A DNA stretch of 31,925 nucleotides, taken from positions 1-31,925 of IMG/VR virus record IMGVR_UViG_3300048587_000235. One strand, given 5' to 3'. A program made the position numbers and the translations under genes. Source of the DNA: a virus. The stretch's first letter is position 1. The number at the start of each line of letters is the position of its first letter. Shown here piece after piece: positions 8,512 to 25,654 of this stretch. The notes below the pieces were generated by a model. It was not told the origin of the DNA, ran no database searches, and saw nothing but the letters and a program-made list of their open reading frames with translations.

Positions 8512-9887
8512 TATACATATATCCAATTAGTTCCGTCATAAAATACGGGTCTTTTTGTTGACCCTGTTGTGCTTACAGTTGAACCAGAAGCTGAAGCTCC
8601 GTATGTCTGACCGTCTGTTATATAAACAATCTTGCCTATTGATGGTGGTGGAAGTGTTCCTATTGTATAGCCAACCAAAATAAAAGAGGACGTTAGCATA
8701 TTTACAATCGGCCTTTCTGGGTCTGTATTATCTACAACTATATTTGTTCCAGCTACTACCGATTTAACATAAGTGTACGTTGGTGGCTGGTTCAACCCAG
8801 ATTGTACGTTAATCCAATCCAATAACATTGGAGCATTGCCTGTAAATGTTATATGCAATCTATCAAAAGTTGTTGTTGATGATTGACTTATGAATCTTGA
8901 TATTGGTATCTGTGCAACTTGCCAAGAAGTTGAAGTAATATCTATTCCGTAATTAACCGCGTTTATACTATTAATGGAAAGTATTCTATAATTTGAAGTC
9001 GCAGTATCAATTAATTTAAATTCAATAGTCTGCCCACCATTCCAAGCCGTTAGCTTAATAGCAAAATTTAACTTTTGATCTGTTGCGTATGATATGTCCG
9101 TTAGGTTTGTCCAACTTACATAGTCATTCACAAGTGCTGGGATATTTAAAGAAACAGTACCTAAAAATGGGTCTGATGTATCTGTTAAGTTTCCGCCAGC
9201 TACAAGGTGTGTATTTCCCCATTCATCGGGCTCTCCTGTCGCTTCGTCATAAATTAAATCTAAAACTGTGTTAGGGTCTGTTGTAGCGGCAGCAGCAACT
9301 ACAGAAAATGAAACCTCTACTTGTGTTGCAAGGTTTACCGTTGGTTTTACAGGAGAGGCAGCTGGCGTTCCCTCAATTATTACTACCGAAAATGTTGGTG
9401 GATATGCAAACGCATTAACCTCAATAGCAAAGACATCAATTCTTGGATGTGTTGGGTCTCCATCCGACAATGTTTTATTTGCAGTTACAAATTCATCGTA
9501 TTTTATGTTGTTTATGATAAATGACGTTGCCCAAACTTTATACGCAAGGTCAGTGAGTCCTAACTTTATAATTCCGCCATTTATGACCGTATTGCCGGAA
9601 TATAACTCTGTGAAACTTGGTAAAGGTGTAAGTTTTAGTTTTGGTGTTGACGCTCCAACTGGAGTATAAACCGTTGGCACTTGCCCCTCTTTGCCCTGAA
9701 GTGTTGTATCCAATACATCTGAAAGCCCCGTATATTTGAGAAAAAAGGATTTCAACGTTGACCATTTAATCCATTTAGTGCTTCCAGCGGAGTTCTGTGT
9801 AGTGTCTGAAACATCGACAACCTCAAACTTATCATCCAATGCTGGCGATGTAAGCTCCGGTTTATCTGTTAATCTTTGATTTGCCAT
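8511..9887 (-). CDS. Tail fibre protein
   Basis: The 458-residue protein begins with an attachment region (LTDKPELTSPALDDKFEVVD, residues 5-24) common at the N-terminus of phage fibres. A beta-rich middle follows, with a possible galactose-binding-like domain (about residues 205-370, including FKLIDTATSNYRILSI and PMLLDWINVQSG). It ends with a Ser/Gly-rich stretch and the typical ending RPVFYDGTNWIYV. It likely contacts the host surface. The start overlaps the upstream stop as TAATG. Confidence 0.72.
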   Translation of the reverse strand: MANQRLTDKPELTSPALDDKFEVVDVSDTTQNSAGSTKWIKWSTLKSFFLKYTGLSDVLDTTLQGKEGQVPTVYTPVGASTPKLKLTPLPSFTELYSGNTVINGGIIKLGLTDLAYKVWATSFIINNIKYDEFVTANKTLSDGDPTHPRIDVFAIEVNAFAYPPTFSVVIIEGTPAASPVKPTVNLATQVEVSFSVVAAAATTDPNTVLDLIYDEATGEPDEWGNTHLVAGGNLTDTSDPFLGTVSLNIPALVNDYVSWTNLTDISYATDQKLNFAIKLTAWNGGQTIEFKLIDTATSNYRILSINSINAVNYGIDITSTSWQVAQIPISRFISQSSTTTFDRLHITFTGNAPMLLDWINVQSGLNQPPTYTYVKSVVAGTNIVVDNTDPERPIVNMLTSSFILVGYTIGTLPPPSIGKIVYITDGQTYGASASGSTVSTTGSTKRPVFYDGTNWIYV

Positions 9888-10435
9888 TAGTTGTATATGT
9901 AATTATTGCCATCTTGGAAGATAGCCGTGTTTCCGTCCATAAATATCTTTAAATCAAACCCACTCACAATGTTTAAGTTGTCTAAAAAGTACGCTTGATT
10001 GTCCTCTTTACCGGTAAAAGTAACGCGATAACCGTTCAATGCTTCTTTTTCCGTTCCAGTTTCATTGGTAACACTTGCGTCAAGACCGTTCCAAAGCCCT
10101 AAAATGCGTATATTTCCCAATCTGTCAATATAAATAGCCCTATAAAGTGCCTTTGTAAACTTATAAATCTCGCTTTGAACCGTAGTTTTGGGAAATTGCA
10201 ACGTTAATGTTTGGTTGTAAAAGTCAGCACCGCCCTCAATTTCGCTATTTTCATTGAAACTTGATGCGTTTGAATGACCCTCGTATATGTCGGTACTTGG
10301 GAATGCCGTTACTTTCTGTCCCGAAATAGTGATTTGGCTTCGGGAATACTTTACATAAGGGAACAAATAGACTTTATTTATCCCGCCCTGTAAATCCTTG
10401 CAGCCCTTTGCTATATTTTTTGTCAGTCCGTACAT
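9887..10435 (-). CDS. Second tail-tube-like protein (paralogue of 12981-13490)
   Basis: From ATG 10435, which overlaps the preceding stop (TAATG), the product has 182 residues. It aligns along its length with the 169-residue protein at 12981-13490: CKDLQGGINKVYL against CKDGLGGNSKLYL, QTLTLQFPKT against QTLTIVLKKM, DRLGNIRILG against DRNGKYHAIG, and LNGYRVTFTG against LNGYTLTGVA. The paralogue's place directly after the capsid gene suggests a tail tube fold. This copy lies next to portal, adaptor and fibres and could be a terminator, a tube-initiator or a tube-fibre adaptor. The assignment rests on internal similarity. Confidence 0.65.
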   Translation of the reverse strand: MYGLTKNIAKGCKDLQGGINKVYLFPYVKYSRSQITISGQKVTAFPSTDIYEGHSNASSFNENSEIEGGADFYNQTLTLQFPKTTVQSEIYKFTKALYRAIYIDRLGNIRILGLWNGLDASVTNETGTEKEALNGYRVTFTGKEDNQAYFLDNLNIVSGFDLKIFMDGNTAIFQDGNNYIYN

Positions 10436-10929
10436 TATCTTCCGAAATACCAGCCCGCTGTTAATTTTATATCCCCATCTGCGTTTACATCGTCTTGACA
10501 ATGTTTATATTCCGCTATGGTGTTCTTGCAAATCCATTTATTGAACCGTTGTACGTACATCTGTGCCATTGCCGAGTACTTTTGCGCCAAGAACTGTGCT
10601 TCTTCTTTATCCACAATCTCTTGGTTTTCGGGAGCGTGTTTGAACAACCCACCGTTCCCGAGTGTATAGCTTGAAATTTCTATATATTCGGCCGTTGCCT
10701 GATATTTTACTATCGGCTGTACATATTCAGTATAAAGCGTTGCGTAAAGTCCCGTATAAGTAGGAAAGTCAGAAAGCATCTTATCGTAAAGTTCAGTTCC
10801 CAACAAAGGCTCTATTACCGTTACTTGCACGTTGTCTATACAGAAATTGAATTTATCAACATCAACGTTTCCGCCCATTATCGTTGTTTGGGCTATCTGT
10901 TGGGGTGTTATGAATAATTTGATTGCCAT
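10435..10929 (-). CDS. Head-tail adaptor-like protein (DUF6712 type)
   Basis: This 164-residue, mainly helical protein (TPQQIAQTTIMGGNVDVDKF..., CIDNVQVTVIEPLLGTELYDKM, EYVQPIVKYQATAEYIE) resembles a DUF6712-type phage protein common in Bacteroidota phages. Its size, helical content and position immediately after the portal gene fit a head completion or connector protein that docks on the portal. The start ATG overlaps the portal stop as TGATG, and its own stop overlaps the next start as TAATG. Confidence 0.65.
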   Translation of the reverse strand: MAIKLFITPQQIAQTTIMGGNVDVDKFNFCIDNVQVTVIEPLLGTELYDKMLSDFPTYTGLYATLYTEYVQPIVKYQATAEYIEISSYTLGNGGLFKHAPENQEIVDKEEAQFLAQKYSAMAQMYVQRFNKWICKNTIAEYKHCQDDVNADGDIKLTAGWYFGR

Positions 10930-12980: not shown

Positions 12981-13490
12981 TTACACCAAAGCAAGTAAAG
13001 CCGTTACTGTGTCGTTATCCAAAATAGGGGCTAATGCTCCAGTAGTGGCAACCCCTGTCAATGTATATCCGTTTAAATCTGTCTTTGCACCTCCCGTACT
13101 TGCAACCACCGTAAAATCAATGCCGTCATCAATTCCTATTGCGTGGTACTTTCCGTTTCTGTCTTTTACAACTGCCTGCGGGAAACCATAAGCCAATAGA
13201 TTGAATTGGGCGCTTGTTGTAGCATCCATTTTTTTCAAAACGATTGTTAGGGTCTGCGTGTTTACGGTCGTTCCCGTGTTTCTGTCAGAAACCATCGACT
13301 GCTCCAAAGTGTTTCCATCGCCCTCAAGCTCAAATTCAAACACTTCCGTAATGCCCGCATTTATAGCAGTTGCCTCGCCATTTGCAATCGTGAAAGGGTC
13401 TTCAATATCGTTGTAAAGATATAGTTTTGAGTTTCCCCCCAACCCATCTTTACAAGCCTTTGTTCTACCCGCTGTTAATAAACAAGCCAT
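12981..13490 (-). CDS. Putative major tail tube protein
   Basis: The 169-residue protein follows the major capsid gene and precedes a strong terminator, consistent with high expression. It has repeated beta segments (TEVFEFELEGDG, NTQTLTIVLKKMD, KTDLNGYTLTGVA), as in tail tube proteins that stack as hexameric rings. It is paralogous to the protein at 9887-10435 through the CKDGLGGNSKLYL, QTLTIVLKK, DRNGKYHAIG and LNGYTLTG segments. The fold assignment is inferred from size, position and beta pattern. A hairpin lies between it and the capsid gene. Confidence 0.65.
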   Translation of the reverse strand: MACLLTAGRTKACKDGLGGNSKLYLYNDIEDPFTIANGEATAINAGITEVFEFELEGDGNTLEQSMVSDRNTGTTVNTQTLTIVLKKMDATTSAQFNLLAYGFPQAVVKDRNGKYHAIGIDDGIDFTVVASTGGAKTDLNGYTLTGVATTGALAPILDNDTVTALLALV

Positions 13491-16032: not shown

Positions 16033-17613
16033 TCACAAAGTAGCATTACTTTCAATATTCCTATCCATTTCTTGACTGCTCGATACGTCAGAAGAAACTA
16101 CATAGGCTTTTATGGGTTGGTTTCCTCCCTGTATTGAATCGGCTATTTGATTGCTTCCAGTACCCTGTACTAAATTGAATGATGGGGCTGGTGGCGCTCC
16201 CGTTCCCGAACCTACACTTGCGCTCGTTGTTACGGGCTTGGTGGATAGTATTTTCTTTACGTTTATAAATCCAGCAATACCAATAGCTGCGGCATTGGCA
16301 AACTTTAATATAGTTCCGAACGGATCGGGTATTACCGAAGTTGCGCTAAGTGCAGAAGTAACACCTTGAAAAGTGTTTATGGTAGCTTGTGAAGCTGCTA
16401 TCCCCTTTGCCAAGGCGCTACCTTCTTTTGCAAGCCCTCCGAGTATATTCAATGTTTGATTGGCAATAGCAAACTTGGCATCCCTCAACCTTTCCTCATC
16501 CTCTTTAATCTTGTCGTTCTTTTCCTTTTCAATTTTAGCTTCTTCTTCTGCCCTTTGCTTCGCTATTTCAAGTGCCTGTTCGTCATAGTATTTATTTACC
16601 TCCGCAATGGCCTCACGCTTAAACACTTCGTCCGCAACAAGGTTTTCTATTTCAAGCAATCTTCTTTCCCTTTCAACTTCCGATTTTACGAGTTCGTCTT
16701 CCCTGTTCTTGTCGGCAAACTCTTGGCGTATTCTCGCTATTTCCTCAATGGCTTTTATCTCCTCGTCTATGCGTTTTTGTGCGGAATCGTCAAAGGTTAT
16801 TTTTGTGTTGTCGGTTTCTTTTTGGGTATTGGTTTTTGATTTTTGTTCGGGGTTATCTATATCAAAAAGAACCGTTTCCAAATCAATTGCCTCGCCTTTG
16901 GCTTTCAGCAATGCCTGTTCCAGTTCATTGATTGCCTTCGCCCTTTCCCTTACCGTGTCAGTTGAATATTGAGCAGCACCCTCCGCGCCAAGAAAGGCAA
17001 ATGCCGCAGCCCCTTTTATTTTTTCCCACAAAGATAGTTCTTCACTTGTTGCCTTTAATCTTTCAAGTTGAACCTCAAGTATCTTTATTTGTTCTTTGTT
17101 GTATTCCTGTGCCTGTTTTACAAGTGCCTTTTTTTGTTCCTGCAACGCTTCCGTTGCTTTGCCCTCTTTTGTTAATAGGCTTATTTTTTTATCCAGCAAT
17201 CCTATCTCGGAAGATAATACGTCGGCATTTGAACGGTTAAGTTGCAATTGTTCTTCGAGCCTTTCGTTTGCTCTTGTGATAAATTCTACAATGTCATCCC
17301 AATATGTAACCACCAATCCAAGCGAAACAACAAAAGCACCTATACCCGTTGCCAATAGCGCGCCACGTGTTGCCTTTAAAGAACCATTGAAAAGTTTGGA
17401 CGCTTCAAAGGCATCCTTTAACCTTGTGGCAAGTCCTCCCGTCAAGCTGTCGAGTATTGCAATAGCCCCGCCATTGCCGGCTACGTCGTCAACAGACTTT
17501 GCGGCTTTCTTTCCCTCCTTGTCTACCTTGTCTAAACTCCCAGCAAGCCTTTCCGCATCCTTTGCGGTTTCGTCCATATTGGACGTTATTATGATTTCCC
17601 TCGTGATCGCCAT
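16033..17613 (-). CDS. Tail tape measure protein
   Basis: The 526-residue protein has the usual tape-measure mixture. The N-terminal region is helical (DETAKDAERLAGSLDKVDKE). A hydrophobic pair of helices follows (GALLATGIGAFVVSLGLVVTYW, about residues 84-105). A long Glu/Lys/Arg coiled coil covers about residues 115-375, and a second hydrophobic region (INTFQGVTSAL..., AAAIGIAGFINVKKI) about 400-465. The short length suggests a rather short tail, roughly 80 nm if the usual 0.15 nm per residue holds. It overlaps the end of the small gene at 17589-17744. The assignment is by architecture. Confidence 0.8.
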   Translation of the reverse strand: MAITREIIITSNMDETAKDAERLAGSLDKVDKEGKKAAKSVDDVAGNGGAIAILDSLTGGLATRLKDAFEASKLFNGSLKATRGALLATGIGAFVVSLGLVVTYWDDIVEFITRANERLEEQLQLNRSNADVLSSEIGLLDKKISLLTKEGKATEALQEQKKALVKQAQEYNKEQIKILEVQLERLKATSEELSLWEKIKGAAAFAFLGAEGAAQYSTDTVRERAKAINELEQALLKAKGEAIDLETVLFDIDNPEQKSKTNTQKETDNTKITFDDSAQKRIDEEIKAIEEIARIRQEFADKNREDELVKSEVERERRLLEIENLVADEVFKREAIAEVNKYYDEQALEIAKQRAEEEAKIEKEKNDKIKEDEERLRDAKFAIANQTLNILGGLAKEGSALAKGIAASQATINTFQGVTSALSATSVIPDPFGTILKFANAAAIGIAGFINVKKILSTKPVTTSASVGSGTGAPPAPSFNLVQGTGSNQIADSIQGGNQPIKAYVVSSDVSSSQEMDRNIESNATL

Positions 17614-21362: not shown

Positions 21363-21886
21363 TTTAAACTCATTTTTAATAAATCCTCAACCTCTAAAGC
21401 GTATGCTTCCACAATATCATCGGGCAGGCTCTTGAAATGGTACTCAAATGGCGTTGTCAAAAAGTGTGTCGTTTCCAATCCTGTGTGATATACTGAATTG
21501 GCCAACGCAAACAAAAGTCCTTTCCTTTTTTGGAACTTTCCGCTCTTTGTTCTGGGCGCGATTCCCCTTCTTATACTCCAGCCGTTAAATGCCATATAGG
21601 GTGGGCGTTTGTTTTTATATCTAAAGTTTTCACGGCTTCCAAAAACACTTTTCTTTTTCCATTTCGTGCCGTCGGCCTTTGTACCGCCTACTCCCTTGAC
21701 CCCTTGATCTATGTAGATACCGTAATCCTCCATTGACAAAGAAGTGGTAAAGCTATTCTTGTATTCAATCGTTTCGGCTTTAAGCGAATTGGAAAGCGCG
21801 CCACTTGCGTTCTTTTTTTTAAGATTATCCTTTGCATCGGAAATTACATTTGCCCAAAAATTATCTATTGCCTGTTTTACGTACAT
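21359..21886 (-). CDS. HK97 gp10-like head-tail joining/tail completion protein
   Basis: The 175-residue basic protein has the pattern of the gp10-like family: an N-terminal helix, then DYGIYIDQGVKGVGGTKADG (residues 57-76) and RPPYMAFNGWSIRRGIAP, ending in a helix (DDIVEAYALEVEDLLKMSL). Such proteins complete the neck or tail terminator. It overlaps the preceding gene by 10 nt and the next by 4 nt. Confidence 0.72.
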   Translation of the reverse strand: MYVKQAIDNFWANVISDAKDNLKKKNASGALSNSLKAETIEYKNSFTTSLSMEDYGIYIDQGVKGVGGTKADGTKWKKKSVFGSRENFRYKNKRPPYMAFNGWSIRRGIAPRTKSGKFQKRKGLLFALANSVYHTGLETTHFLTTPFEYHFKSLPDDIVEAYALEVEDLLKMSLK

Positions 21887-22344
21887 AGGTTTAATGTTGT
21901 ATTGGGCATTTCTACTTCAAATGTGAGTTTCCATCCATCCAATAGATTTACGTTGGAATAGGTTATGATTTCAAGTTGTGGATTCTCATTTGCCGTTATA
22001 TTGTTGTCCTCAAAATCCCTGTACATTGATGTCCACAATCTATTTAAAGCTGCTAAGGTATCGTTGTAATTATCCACTTCATTATCCTGACCCCAAAATT
22101 TATCGGTTCTTATTTCTTTGTTTATGTCGCGGATATCCAAACAAACTATCTCAACATTGAATTTAACCGTTTGCCCATTGGTGAAACTTCCCGAAACAAT
22201 ATCAACATTCAACAAAGGGAAAACATTGCCCTTGTCCAAATCAATGCTATCGTCTGGGGAATTTGTTACGGTGTTGATATATTCATCAGCATCAGCAAGC
22301 TGTTTGATGTAGTAGAGAAGTTGGGTATATTGGTTTAAACTCAT
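21877..22344 (-). CDS. Tail terminator-like protein
   Basis: This 155-residue alpha/beta protein (LNQYTQLLYYIKQLADADEYIN, NVFPLLNVDIVSGSF, TVKFNVEIVCLD, LTFEVEMPNTT) resembles tail terminator proteins, which have an N-terminal helix followed by antiparallel strands. It sits next to the gp10-like gene, the common pairing in siphophages. Its ATG starts where the upstream gene stops. The family was assigned by pattern only. Confidence 0.6.
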   Translation of the reverse strand: MSLNQYTQLLYYIKQLADADEYINTVTNSPDDSIDLDKGNVFPLLNVDIVSGSFTNGQTVKFNVEIVCLDIRDINKEIRTDKFWGQDNEVDNYNDTLAALNRLWTSMYRDFEDNNITANENPQLEIITYSNVNLLDGWKLTFEVEMPNTTLNLCT

Positions 22345-22541
22345 TAGTCCAATGTTTTTAAAACGTCTTTTTCTTTTGTAAATTCAAAGTCCTCGTGGTA
22401 ACTTTCTTCAATTCCACAAATCAACTCATAAGATATTTGGTTACGCCTAAGAAAAATACCCCTAATCATTCTTTGCTTTTGGTCTGGATCTGTTTTTAAA
22501 TAAACATATTCCCCAATATCGTATTTTGTATCTATTCTCAT
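22344..22541 (-). CDS. Hypothetical protein, 65 residues
   Basis: This short protein contains YDIGEYVYLKTDPDQKQRMIRGIFLRRN near residues 7-34, like small SH3-type domains found in phage hypothetical proteins. It starts within the ATGA overlap of the tail chaperone downstream frame and ends at the next start. It has no membrane segment. The function is unknown. Confidence 0.68.
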   Translation of the reverse strand: MRIDTKYDIGEYVYLKTDPDQKQRMIRGIFLRRNQISYELICGIEESYHEDFEFTKEKDVLKTLD

Positions 22542-22807
22542 AACTGCGTTGTTGTTGTGCCGGGTTTCTTTTTTCTTAACTGTGTTTCAAGTTTCTGTTT
22601 GTCTATTTTGTGCGCTAAAAACAACAATGTTTCTCCCGCTGGCTTATCTAAAACCTTATCCATCTTTAATAAGTTTCCCTTAGCTAAACTTTCAATCGTT
22701 GCATACCATCCCCATTTTTCAAAATAGCTTAATGCGCCATCGCCTTCGCTTGTTCCGCTTCCGTATATCTCTGGATACTTACCCTTAATTCCCTCGCTAT
22801 ATTGCAA
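22538..22807 (-). CDS. Tail assembly chaperone, downstream frame (GT-like, made by -1 frameshift)
   Basis: This frame has no good start of its own (TTG at 22807) and lies in the -1 frame relative to the 188-residue chaperone. The two share 79 nt. A run of nine T on the minus strand (22814-22806) contains T TTT TTT in the zero frame. A shift there gives a fusion of about 252 residues: 163 from the first frame plus 89 from this one (LQYSEGIKGKYP..., YFEKWGWYATIESLAKG). The organisation copies the lambda G/GT pair, where the longer product recruits the tape measure. The exact shift site is inferred. Confidence 0.72.
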   Translation of the reverse strand: MQYSEGIKGKYPEIYGSGTSEGDGALSYFEKWGWYATIESLAKGNLLKMDKVLDKPAGETLLFLAHKIDKQKLETQLRKKKPGTTTTQL

Positions 22808-23295
22808 AAAAAAAGCAATGCCCCGTTTACGATATTCATAGGCATTTGTTTCATTGCTTCTGCCTTTTCCTCGGTTCCTGAATAGTACTCTATGTTATAG
22901 TTCCCAAAGGCATCTTTTTTGGTTACCTTTCTAAATAACACGCCCATCGTCTTGTGCAAATCTTCTATTTCTACGCCGAAGGTTGAAAGGTCTACGAACT
23001 CCCGTGTGGTAATCTTGTCCAAGTTCGGAACAAAACCATATTCAATTCCATTCATTTTAAAAGTGTTCTTGAATGGAGTGTCCTCGTTCATTGCCTTGTC
23101 AATCTGCTCCACGATTTCCGAATAGTCCTTGTGTGATATGTCCTTTACTTTTCGATGTGACAGACACGTGAATATCTCAATCTTTCGTGTGTTGAAATTA
23201 AATAGGTTCAAGTCCTCCCTTAAACAAAGTTTGTGGTACTTTTGGTATTGTTCAAGCGTAATGTCGCCAATATGTTCGGGCAAAGTGATCTTCAT
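22729..23295 (-). CDS. Tail assembly chaperone, upstream frame (G-like)
   Basis: The 188-residue protein starts KITLPEHIGDITLEQYQKYHKL and contains RKIEIFTCLSH, EFVDLSTFGVEIEDLHKTMGVLFR and DAFGNYNIEYYSGTEEKAEAMKQM, features I know from Bacteroidota phage proteins encoded before tail genes. It ends in a long 79-nt overlap with a second frame, with a T9 slippery run, which points to programmed -1 frameshifting. In other siphophages, chaperones of this kind keep the tape measure soluble during tail assembly. It lies immediately after the large terminase gene. Confidence 0.72.
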   Translation of the reverse strand: MKITLPEHIGDITLEQYQKYHKLCLREDLNLFNFNTRKIEIFTCLSHRKVKDISHKDYSEIVEQIDKAMNEDTPFKNTFKMNGIEYGFVPNLDKITTREFVDLSTFGVEIEDLHKTMGVLFRKVTKKDAFGNYNIEYYSGTEEKAEAMKQMPMNIVNGALLFFCNIARELRVSIQRYTEAEQAKAMAH

Positions 23296-23328: not shown

Positions 23329-24558
23329 TTACCAAATCTCTATACCGAAAGCACCGTCCAAATGATAGGTTACATTGTATCTTATACCATCAATTGCGTG
23401 ATTCCAATCGTCAACGTATAACTTTGAAGTCTTGTCTGAATAAACGTGGTTGTTAAATTCTTTTGCGATGTTGTGGCTGTTTTCCTCTACTATTATTTGG
23501 AAGTCCTGCATTCGTGTTATGCCACTCTCAATCGTTCCTTTTTTGACGGCTTGGATATTAACCCCCGCATCCTTTAAATCATCAATCAAACGTGGCTCTG
23601 CGCTATCTGCAATTATAAGTTTATTGCCTACCCTTGCCAATATCATCTTTGCAAGGTCTGAACTCTTGTTCCCTTTGGAATAGATATGCTCCTTGACGTA
23701 GATAATCTTTTTCTTTTTATCTATTGCTACCTCGGTCAATGTGTCCGGGTCAACGGAATATCCAAAGTCCATCCCGCAGGATGTTTGCAGGTTATCGGGA
23801 TTGAACGCGCCGAACTTCCAATTATCGAATACAACCCCCTCGGCTTTTTCAAGCCAGCCGCCTAAGTATTTGTGAAGATATTTTTTAGGGTTGGTTAATT
23901 TAATCTCGTTAACCTTATCTAAAAAGGATTGTGAGAGATAACCCATTCTTTCCGCAATATGATATGTGGTGTGTATTGCTTCAACAGATGGATGGTTTGA
24001 TATTAAAACCTGTTCTCCTTCAATTTGAATTGGTGTTGTATATCCCTCAAGCCAACGTTTATAAATGAAGTGTTCTTTAGTACTTGGGTTTTGAACCCAA
24101 ATAACTCTGTTTTGTGTTATGCTTCCACGAATACTATCGTCAATATCATCAAAAGTTCCCTCATCTCTAAAATCCTCCCCCTCGTCTATTATCCAAGTCG
24201 TTATTCCTGCAAGTGATTTAAGGTTTGCTGTCTGGTCTCCTTGATTTGTTTTTATACCGCTAAACAGAATAAAAGACCCTGTATGTATATTAGTGTATTT
24301 GTTTCCTGACTTTCTAAAATCTACATTACTTCCATTAAGCCCTATTGAATTTTCAAACTCTGGAATAATTGATTTCTCCGCACTTGCCATTGTATATCTT
24401 GTTATCAATATACCTTGATTTTTTTGGTACGTTAACCTTGAAGCGAAGTCGTGTATTGTTGTAGATTTAAGGGATGCTCTACCCCCTGTTAAAAGATAGT
24501 ATCTTTTTTTTGAAGTAATTAAAGGTTGGTAGGCTTTATGTATTCTTATTCCACCCAT
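23329..24558 (-). CDS. Terminase large subunit (Terminase_3/PBSX type)
   Basis: The 409-residue packaging motor has an N-terminal ATPase and a C-terminal nuclease. Walker A is LLTGGRASLKST (about residues 22-33) and Walker B with the catalytic Glu is WIIDEGEDF (about 122-130). RNase H-type metal ligands are likely in GMDFGYSVDP (Asp near 264), IIADSAEP (Asp near 318) and HAIDGIRY (Asp near 390). Walker A has Leu where Gly usually precedes Lys-Ser. The length is usual for the family. It is preceded by a small-terminase-like gene that it overlaps by 13 nt. Confidence 0.93.
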   Translation of the reverse strand: MGGIRIHKAYQPLITSKKRYYLLTGGRASLKSTTIHDFASRLTYQKNQGILITRYTMASAEKSIIPEFENSIGLNGSNVDFRKSGNKYTNIHTGSFILFSGIKTNQGDQTANLKSLAGITTWIIDEGEDFRDEGTFDDIDDSIRGSITQNRVIWVQNPSTKEHFIYKRWLEGYTTPIQIEGEQVLISNHPSVEAIHTTYHIAERMGYLSQSFLDKVNEIKLTNPKKYLHKYLGGWLEKAEGVVFDNWKFGAFNPDNLQTSCGMDFGYSVDPDTLTEVAIDKKKKIIYVKEHIYSKGNKSSDLAKMILARVGNKLIIADSAEPRLIDDLKDAGVNIQAVKKGTIESGITRMQDFQIIVEENSHNIAKEFNNHVYSDKTSKLYVDDWNHAIDGIRYNVTYHLDGAFGIEIW

Positions 24559-24840: not shown

Positions 24841-25230
24841 TTACTTTTCATATTGTTCAAAAACCAAATCTATTTTCTTTATCATTTCAATAAGCACTTT
24901 GATTGTGCCTTGACAGTTTAGGCAATCGGGTTTCCAATATTGCCTATTGAATATATCTGAATGGGTTTTGCAAACAAACAATATTTCATCCCAACTTAGT
25001 TTTAAAGTCCTGTTTTGTTGAAAGGCTTTCCAGTCTTTGTATTCCTGTTCGGTCATACACCTTGCCTTGAAACGGTAAGGGAGTAGCTTGTTTAGTTTCG
25101 CTTCCCTTTCTTCACAACCACAATCTTTGCCGTTTACGAATGTATCTAATCCCGTTGCTTTTATTGCCTTTGCAATTGTTGTTCCAACACCGCCCGATTT
25201 GATGGTTACTTTCTTTTTTGGTTTAGCCAT
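24841..25230 (-). CDS. Cys-motif phage protein upstream of terminase
   Basis: This 129-residue basic protein has KDCGCEEREAKLN (about residues 36-48), RCMTEQEYKDW and PDCLNCQG. These Cys pairs could bind a metal. I associate the GCEER pattern with small proteins in Bacteroidota phage packaging regions. It overlaps the sigma-like gene end by 8 nt. The function is unknown; a packaging or DNA-binding accessory role is only inferred from position. Confidence 0.65.
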   Translation of the reverse strand: MAKPKKKVTIKSGGVGTTIAKAIKATGLDTFVNGKDCGCEEREAKLNKLLPYRFKARCMTEQEYKDWKAFQQNRTLKLSWDEILFVCKTHSDIFNRQYWKPDCLNCQGTIKVLIEMIKKIDLVFEQYEK

Positions 25231-25654
25231 TTAATATAAATTCTTTAGCGTTCTTTATTTCCCGGAACACAAAACCGTAATTGATATTGTATTCTTTTTC
25301 TATTTCCCTCAATGACCTATCAAAACTTTCGTTCAACAATTCCCTTTTATGCCATTCAAGTTGATCTATTCTTTTTAGTATTCTATCTTCTTCATCTGTT
25401 GGCTCGAAATATCTTTGGTTGCATTCTATTTGTAGCTTTTCCGTTAACCTAACATTCTTTGTTTCCTTGCAATGGTTAATGAATAGGTTTAATATTGTTC
25501 TGTAAATATAGCGATTATTTACTTCTTCTTTGTCAAATATTCTTAGATATGCTTCTTGTAAAATATCTTGGGCTAAGTCTTTATCCCCGCAAATGGAGAT
25601 TGAAATGTTTGTCCATTTCTCGTTGTCCTTATTGCTCCAGTTCTTTGGGTTCAA
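25223..25654 (-). CDS. Sigma-70-like (ECF-type) transcription factor
   Basis: The 143-residue protein contains a region-2-like helix (GDKDLAQDILQEAYLRIFDKE, about residues 23-43) as in extracytoplasmic-function sigma factors, followed by IYRTILNLFINHCKE. A C-terminal region-4-like helix-turn-helix covers SLREIEKEYNINYGFVFREIKNA, about residues 113-135. It lies immediately before the packaging and structural genes, so it may direct host RNA polymerase to late promoters. It is short for a sigma factor, and region 4 is weak. It overlaps both neighbours by 4-8 nt. Confidence 0.72.
   Translation of the reverse strand: MNPKNWSNKDNEKWTNISISICGDKDLAQDILQEAYLRIFDKEEVNNRYIYRTILNLFINHCKETKNVRLTEKLQIECNQRYFEPTDEEDRILKRIDQLEWHKRELLNESFDRSLREIEKEYNINYGFVFREIKNAKEFILNG

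Follow-up and report, generated by a model that had tools for sequence, protein, structure and literature searches.

Two overlapping open reading frames directly behind a terminase gene raise the question of whether they are read as one protein or as two and, if as one, at which step the frame is changed. The window analysed is the entire IMG/VR virus record of 31,925 bases, in which the virion genes lie on the minus strand. The first frame, ORF A (G-like; 23295-22729, minus strand), starts with ATG and encodes the 188-amino-acid product of unslipped reading. The second, ORF B (T-like; 22807-22538, minus strand), is an extension in the -1 frame that encodes 89 amino acids from a TTG and carries a KWGWYATI motif. 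This TTG, its sole start, takes its Ts from the end of a nine-T run (22814-22806, minus strand; A9 on the plus strand), which is read as CTT TTT TTT TGC in the frame of A and is the candidate slippage site. At this run begins the stretch read in two frames (22729-22807, minus strand). A sequence-only reading of the locus had described an overlap of 79 nt with a second, -1 frame without a good start, a T9 run offering T TTT TTT, and a fusion of about 252 residues. We confirmed the overlap and its frames; the run holds one T_TTT_TTT heptamer in phase with A, and the fusion computed for a -1 shift has 252 amino acids. In the third frame a TAG (22797-22799, minus strand) lies 6 nt past the run, and translation would halt there if the transcript lacked one U.

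ORF A is preceded directly, with a gap of 33 nt, by the gene for the large terminase subunit TerL (23329-24558, minus strand; Terminase_3, E 1.9e-19; Terminase_3C, E 4.3e-9). The probable tail tape measure gene (16033-17613, minus strand) was recognised by weak matches to phrog_24676 (E 1e-8) and phrog_3336 (E 1e-4) and lies about 5 kb downstream of the A/B pair; the site thus follows TerL and does not adjoin the tape measure gene, as had been noted from the sequence. Downstream of B, a gene conserved in most relatives (21877-22344, minus strand) belongs to phrog_30964, a family of unknown function, and the 65-amino-acid frame between the two (22344-22541, minus strand) is present in only 3 of 282 relatives. 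ORF A matches phrog_32199 (E 1.7e-14) and ORF B matches phrog_38404 (E 5e-4), both of them function-unknown families. Further upstream, a small protein (25223-25654, minus strand) has a weak match to Sigma-70 region 2 (E 0.0027, below the Pfam cut-off), and an annotated counterpart occupies the same position ahead of the terminase genes in phage P12024L; it may serve the phage as a sigma factor for its late genes. In addition, two proteins flanking the portal gene (12981-13490 and 9887-10501, both minus strand) match phrog_19091, of unknown function, and may possibly be duplicated tail tube proteins.

To gather related loci, A, B and alignments of the two were used as queries against viral contigs, and one genome collection and three genomes were searched as well; annotated phages were added by tblastn. 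The resulting set is a sample, as each scan contributed the best 80 of 111, 539, 575 or 577 relatives. In total 398 loci were obtained. Four of them (L187, L204, L291 and L392; cut at contig ends, lacking B or lacking the run) were set aside before the runs were counted, and the others were collapsed by identical flanks to 282 distinct loci. A locus with a T11 run and another relation of A to B (L003) was included in the run count over 282 loci. Together with a locus in which B is broken downstream (L080), it was excluded from the analyses of stimulators, of ATG codons between the run and the WGWY motif, of start codons near the stop of A, and of hhalign profiles; it alone was excluded from the counts of third-frame stops and of start codons for B. 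The surroundings of the pair are conserved: TerL homologues were recognised in 247 of the 282 loci, and B is followed by a homologue of the 21877-22344 gene in 264 of them. The same order of TerL, A and B is found in the isolates P12024L and P12024S, which have a Persicivirga (Nonlabens) host. Three contigs from the genome collection carry the titles of Flavobacteriales, Bacteroidetes and Winogradskyella MAGs; since these are small contigs in bins, their titles point weakly to Bacteroidota as the probable hosts of the T9-family phages.

The conservation of the T run in homologues had been suggested as a check on the proposed frameshift. B lies in the -1 frame relative to A in 281 of the 282 distinct loci, and a run of at least eight Ts is kept at the junction in all 282, of at least nine in 281. 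Its length is nine in 264 loci, ten in 16, and eight and eleven in one each; a T7 run does not occur. This length is held irrespective of the codon phase, as 234 of the 264 T9 runs are in phase 1, 26 in phase 0 and 4 in phase 2. In the first 161 distinct loci, the codons flanking TTT TTT co-vary such that nine Ts result: GTT or CTT is combined with Txx in 128 loci, TTT with a codon not starting in T in 22, and GGT or AGT with TTG in 4, with 7 other combinations. In one close pair (L048 and L049) the run is shifted by one base and both flanks are altered. This linkage cannot be put down to the frame of B, given that the first residue of B is variable (F, L, M, C, S or Y).

We also followed these changes on a tree of 200 distinct loci (a FastTree estimate made before the last scan, with the run left out and many weak forks). 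At least 10 changes of phase and 7 changes of length were counted, and 8 of the 200 loci depart from nine. When the downstream codon was allowed to evolve freely on the tree, no simulation had so few departures, whether among 2000 per rate at three rates or, in a repeat, among 3000 per rate at two rates chosen close to the number of changes observed. A more conservative test on independent pairs, in which significance was unreachable with five pairs only, gave 3 for, 0 against and 2 without difference (p 0.25). The one T11 run (L003, 6481-6492, on a contig shared with L019 and L102) stands apart, as the frame of A meets a stop right after the run and the relation to B differs; this is either an assembly error or a natural variant relying on slippage for both products.

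As a background we used 991 other ORFs of the related loci (770,493 nt), with expectations obtained by synonymous shuffling. Runs of T7 were found 113 times against 179 expected, T8 runs 5 times against 28, and runs of T9 or longer were absent against 8.4 expected. An in-phase T_TTT_TTT without further Ts occurred 91 times, with 137 expected. The bare heptamer is therefore tolerated in ordinary genes, whereas T8 and longer runs are avoided there, yet kept at the A/B junction. The shortage of T8 and longer runs in other genes could be due to replication slippage. For A runs, a like shortage is seen from A9 upwards (20 observed against 48 expected; for A10 or longer, 2 against 31); avoidance thus starts at T8 for T runs and becomes clear only at about A9 for A runs, so that the strands differ in tolerance.

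A site of polymerase slippage is recognised by an A or T run of about nine that is conserved in length whatever its codon phase, and this is what the A/B junction displays. Slippage in vivo is described as highly efficient on nine As or Ts and as established in bacteria, where the RNA-DNA hybrid spans 9-10 bp (PMC5009743). In E. coli and Buchnera, transcription insertions at A or T runs are reported to be mostly of a single nucleotide and to rise exponentially with length (PMC5574713), and one inserted base is what reaches the frame of B. In many bacterial genomes, selection against runs of this kind is also reported to become visible at a length of nine (PMC1088944). Taken from the sequences, the pattern indicates that the A-B fusion is made more probably through RNA polymerase slippage than through ribosomal frameshifting, and both could act. 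We infer that polymerase slippage is probably the main process, with a possible ribosomal share.

According to the explanation that we favour, A and B would each encode half of a single phage morphogenesis protein. The majority of transcripts, with U9, would be translated into A. In some transcripts, the host RNA polymerase would re-align the all-rU:dA hybrid at the T9 run and add one extra U, and ordinary translation of these U10 transcripts would run from A into B and yield the 252-residue fusion. The length of the run would set the ratio of A to A-B, so that nine would be kept, and transcripts that have lost one U would run into the stop close after the run. Taken as a whole, with the host polymerase as the slipping machine and the ratio as its outcome, this account seems to us somewhat better than an even bet.

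Its strongest competitor places the shift in the ribosome, as a conventional programmed -1 frameshift at U_UUU_UUU like that of lambda G/GT, with the extra Ts incidental or mildly helpful. An in-phase heptamer of the X_XXY_YYZ type, here T_TTT_TTT, fits within the run at every distinct locus and the -1 direction is correct. Tail chaperones of many phages are described as using -1 ribosomal shifts (PMC5009743). In E. coli, U_UUU_UUU is reported to shift at more than 0.10% without a stimulator, and the H_HH.U_UU.Y heptamers, to which it belongs, to rank with the efficient heptamers when a strong pseudoknot is present (PMC4066793). Seven Ts would suffice for this mechanism, yet T7 was found in 0 and T8 in 1 of 282 loci, the flanking codons compensate to hold nine, and other genes often contain the bare heptamer. 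Moreover, no stimulator was found in 78 diverse loci for which nested folds were computed. The RNA 5-65 nt downstream of the run (mean z +0.28) and the 60 nt before it (mean z +0.26) were no more folded than shuffled sequences, with control windows at z -0.24 to -0.47, and an SD-like 5-mer within 20 nt upstream of the run was present in 0 of the 78 loci. Some known -1 frameshifting sites are without a stimulator. In Bacteroidia, the anti-Shine-Dalgarno sequence is reported to be sequestered, so that ribosomes work without SD pairing (PMC9976891) and an SD stimulator is not expected to function there. Of the frameshift that had been predicted from the sequence, the conserved and programmed change into the -1 frame stands, but a ribosomal mechanism on T_TTT_TTT is doubtful, since it is the nine-T run in any codon phase that is conserved and not the heptamer, and since structure and SD stimulator were not detected. 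We regard the purely ribosomal explanation as unlikely.

Both processes might also contribute in similar measure on the same U run and jointly set the ratio. A T9 run meets the requirements of both at once, but the pattern of conservation needs no ribosomal part and the constraint on length is explained without the ribosome, which makes an equal partnership more unlikely still. Another property of the junction concerns the third frame. A stop in this frame lies within 12 nt past the run in 82% of 199 loci, compared to 37% at random positions of A (counts that ignore kinship), and in 141 of the 199 it is found at the same spacing of 6 nt. Such an early stop would suit the discarding of a slippage product.

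A reading that needs no fusion makes B an independent gene, which would be started at a codon of its own or by re-initiation at the stop of A. In the records of P12024L and P12024S, the annotated B begins with an ATG overlapping the stop codon of A, and in 83 of 280 loci some start codon is located no more than 12 nt from this stop. Against this, in 210 of 281 loci the frame of B contains no ATG, GTG or TTG between the stop that precedes it and the 20th codon past the run. An ATG occurs in this interval in only 13 of the 281 loci, and between the run and the WGWY motif it is absent from 256 of 263 (present in 7). The residues of B right after the run are conserved as well, and homologues exist in which A and B are one frame. 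On the start-codon counts we rejected an independent start for B, and a separate gene appears very improbable. Homologues with separate starts for B and no slippery run, which would have spoken against the predicted frameshift, were not seen in the T9 family.

The one-frame homologues were found in the Duneviridae. In laban6-1, Ingeline_1 and 23T, A and B form one continuous ORF of 293-301 amino acids, which aligned to the profile of the fusion through the junction (hhalign probability 97.4%, E 1.5e-11, 222 columns). The match to A alone was significant too (E 6.7e-10), the match to B alone was not, and Polaribacter phage Leef_1 aligned poorly in this comparison. The Duneviridae junction, LFF or LYF, is encoded without a T run above T6. 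These distant relatives support the fusion, and they provide a control made by nature, as the run is missing where the reading frame need not change. We had considered Flavobacterium phage 6H as a case with a frame change of its own and rejected it, because 23T, which is more than 98% identical, has one continuous ORF. In 6H (L399, 10352-10927, minus strand) the annotated protein is shortened by a frame disruption relative to 23T-like phages, which is probably a sequence error or a mutation. Taken together, the sequence comparisons indicate that the A-B fusion is real and programmed. The least credible explanation of all is a sequencing error, gene decay or phase variation of the homopolymer in the DNA: homopolymers are error-prone and mutable and L003 has T11 with a different frame relation, yet T9 recurs across hundreds of contigs as well as in the isolates P12024L and P12024S, and A and B are in one frame, as phase variation would produce, in 0 of 394 T9-family loci, so that DNA-level switching is not in use and was rejected together with fusion at the DNA level.

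Recoding of tail chaperones is a textbook example of ribosomal frameshifting. From layout and synteny, A and A-B are quite probably tail assembly chaperones comparable to lambda G/GT. The AlphaFold2 model of A has a mean pLDDT of 88, that of B is of low confidence (69). Searches of the PDB, by fold with the model of A and by sequence, gave no usable match for A or B, and absences from the fold library were not counted as evidence. In BFVD, the best Foldseek matches of A are uncharacterised phage proteins, one of them from P12024S; a protein named tail assembly chaperone was matched weakly (E 0.061). Pfam and PHROG searches of A and B gave no match with an assigned function, and one of 32 family members matched Phage_TAC_7 weakly (E 0.043).

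The resemblance to lambda G/GT lies in a short protein and its -1 extension made from overlapping ORFs of morphogenesis genes at one slippery site, with a second ORF that has no separate start, as found in the T9-family loci. GT, the -1 product of lambda, is described as bridging the tape measure and the tail tube (PMC5009743). In contrast to lambda, A/B has a homopolymer T9 kept by its length and not a heptamer with stimulators. It adjoins TerL, about 5 kb from the tape-measure-like gene, and does not lie just upstream of the tape measure; its frame change is probably made in the transcript, and family searches detect no sequence relation between the two systems. Closer in the proposed mechanism are dnaX of Thermus (nine As or Ts) and mxiE/spa13 of Shigella (a U run), where transcripts of mixed length give two products by ordinary translation (PMC5009743, PMC1088944). 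These are cellular or secretion-system genes, whereas A/B is a phage morphogenesis gene, and unlike in dnaX and mxiE, nine is kept here by compensating codon changes over a large family. The single ORF of the Duneviridae (laban6-1 gp017, Ingeline1_5 and 23T ANB40982.1) is homologous over most of the fusion and has a similar position among the virion genes, but it is continuous and yields no short product by such a route. The nearest annotated counterparts, gp40-gp41 of the Inhavirus P12024L and gp38-gp39 of P12024S, belong to the same family, with the same order after TerL, the T9 run and the -1 frame; they differ in coming from isolated phages with a host and in being annotated as two separate hypothetical proteins.

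Such records carry a warning for annotation, as the two ORFs of A/B phages are listed as separate hypothetical genes. Among open-licence papers, we found no description of a tail chaperone made by transcriptional slippage. It is an even call whether, in a large family of phages of Bacteroidota, RNA polymerase slippage on exactly nine Ts determines how much short and how much long tail chaperone is made, and has thereby moved a classical ribosomal shift to the transcript in hosts that are blind to the Shine-Dalgarno sequence. If this is true, the quantity under selection would be the ratio of the proteins and not the machine that makes it. The length of the run would then be a direct readout of the ratio of A to A-B, and the coupling to Shine-Dalgarno-blind hosts would become testable.
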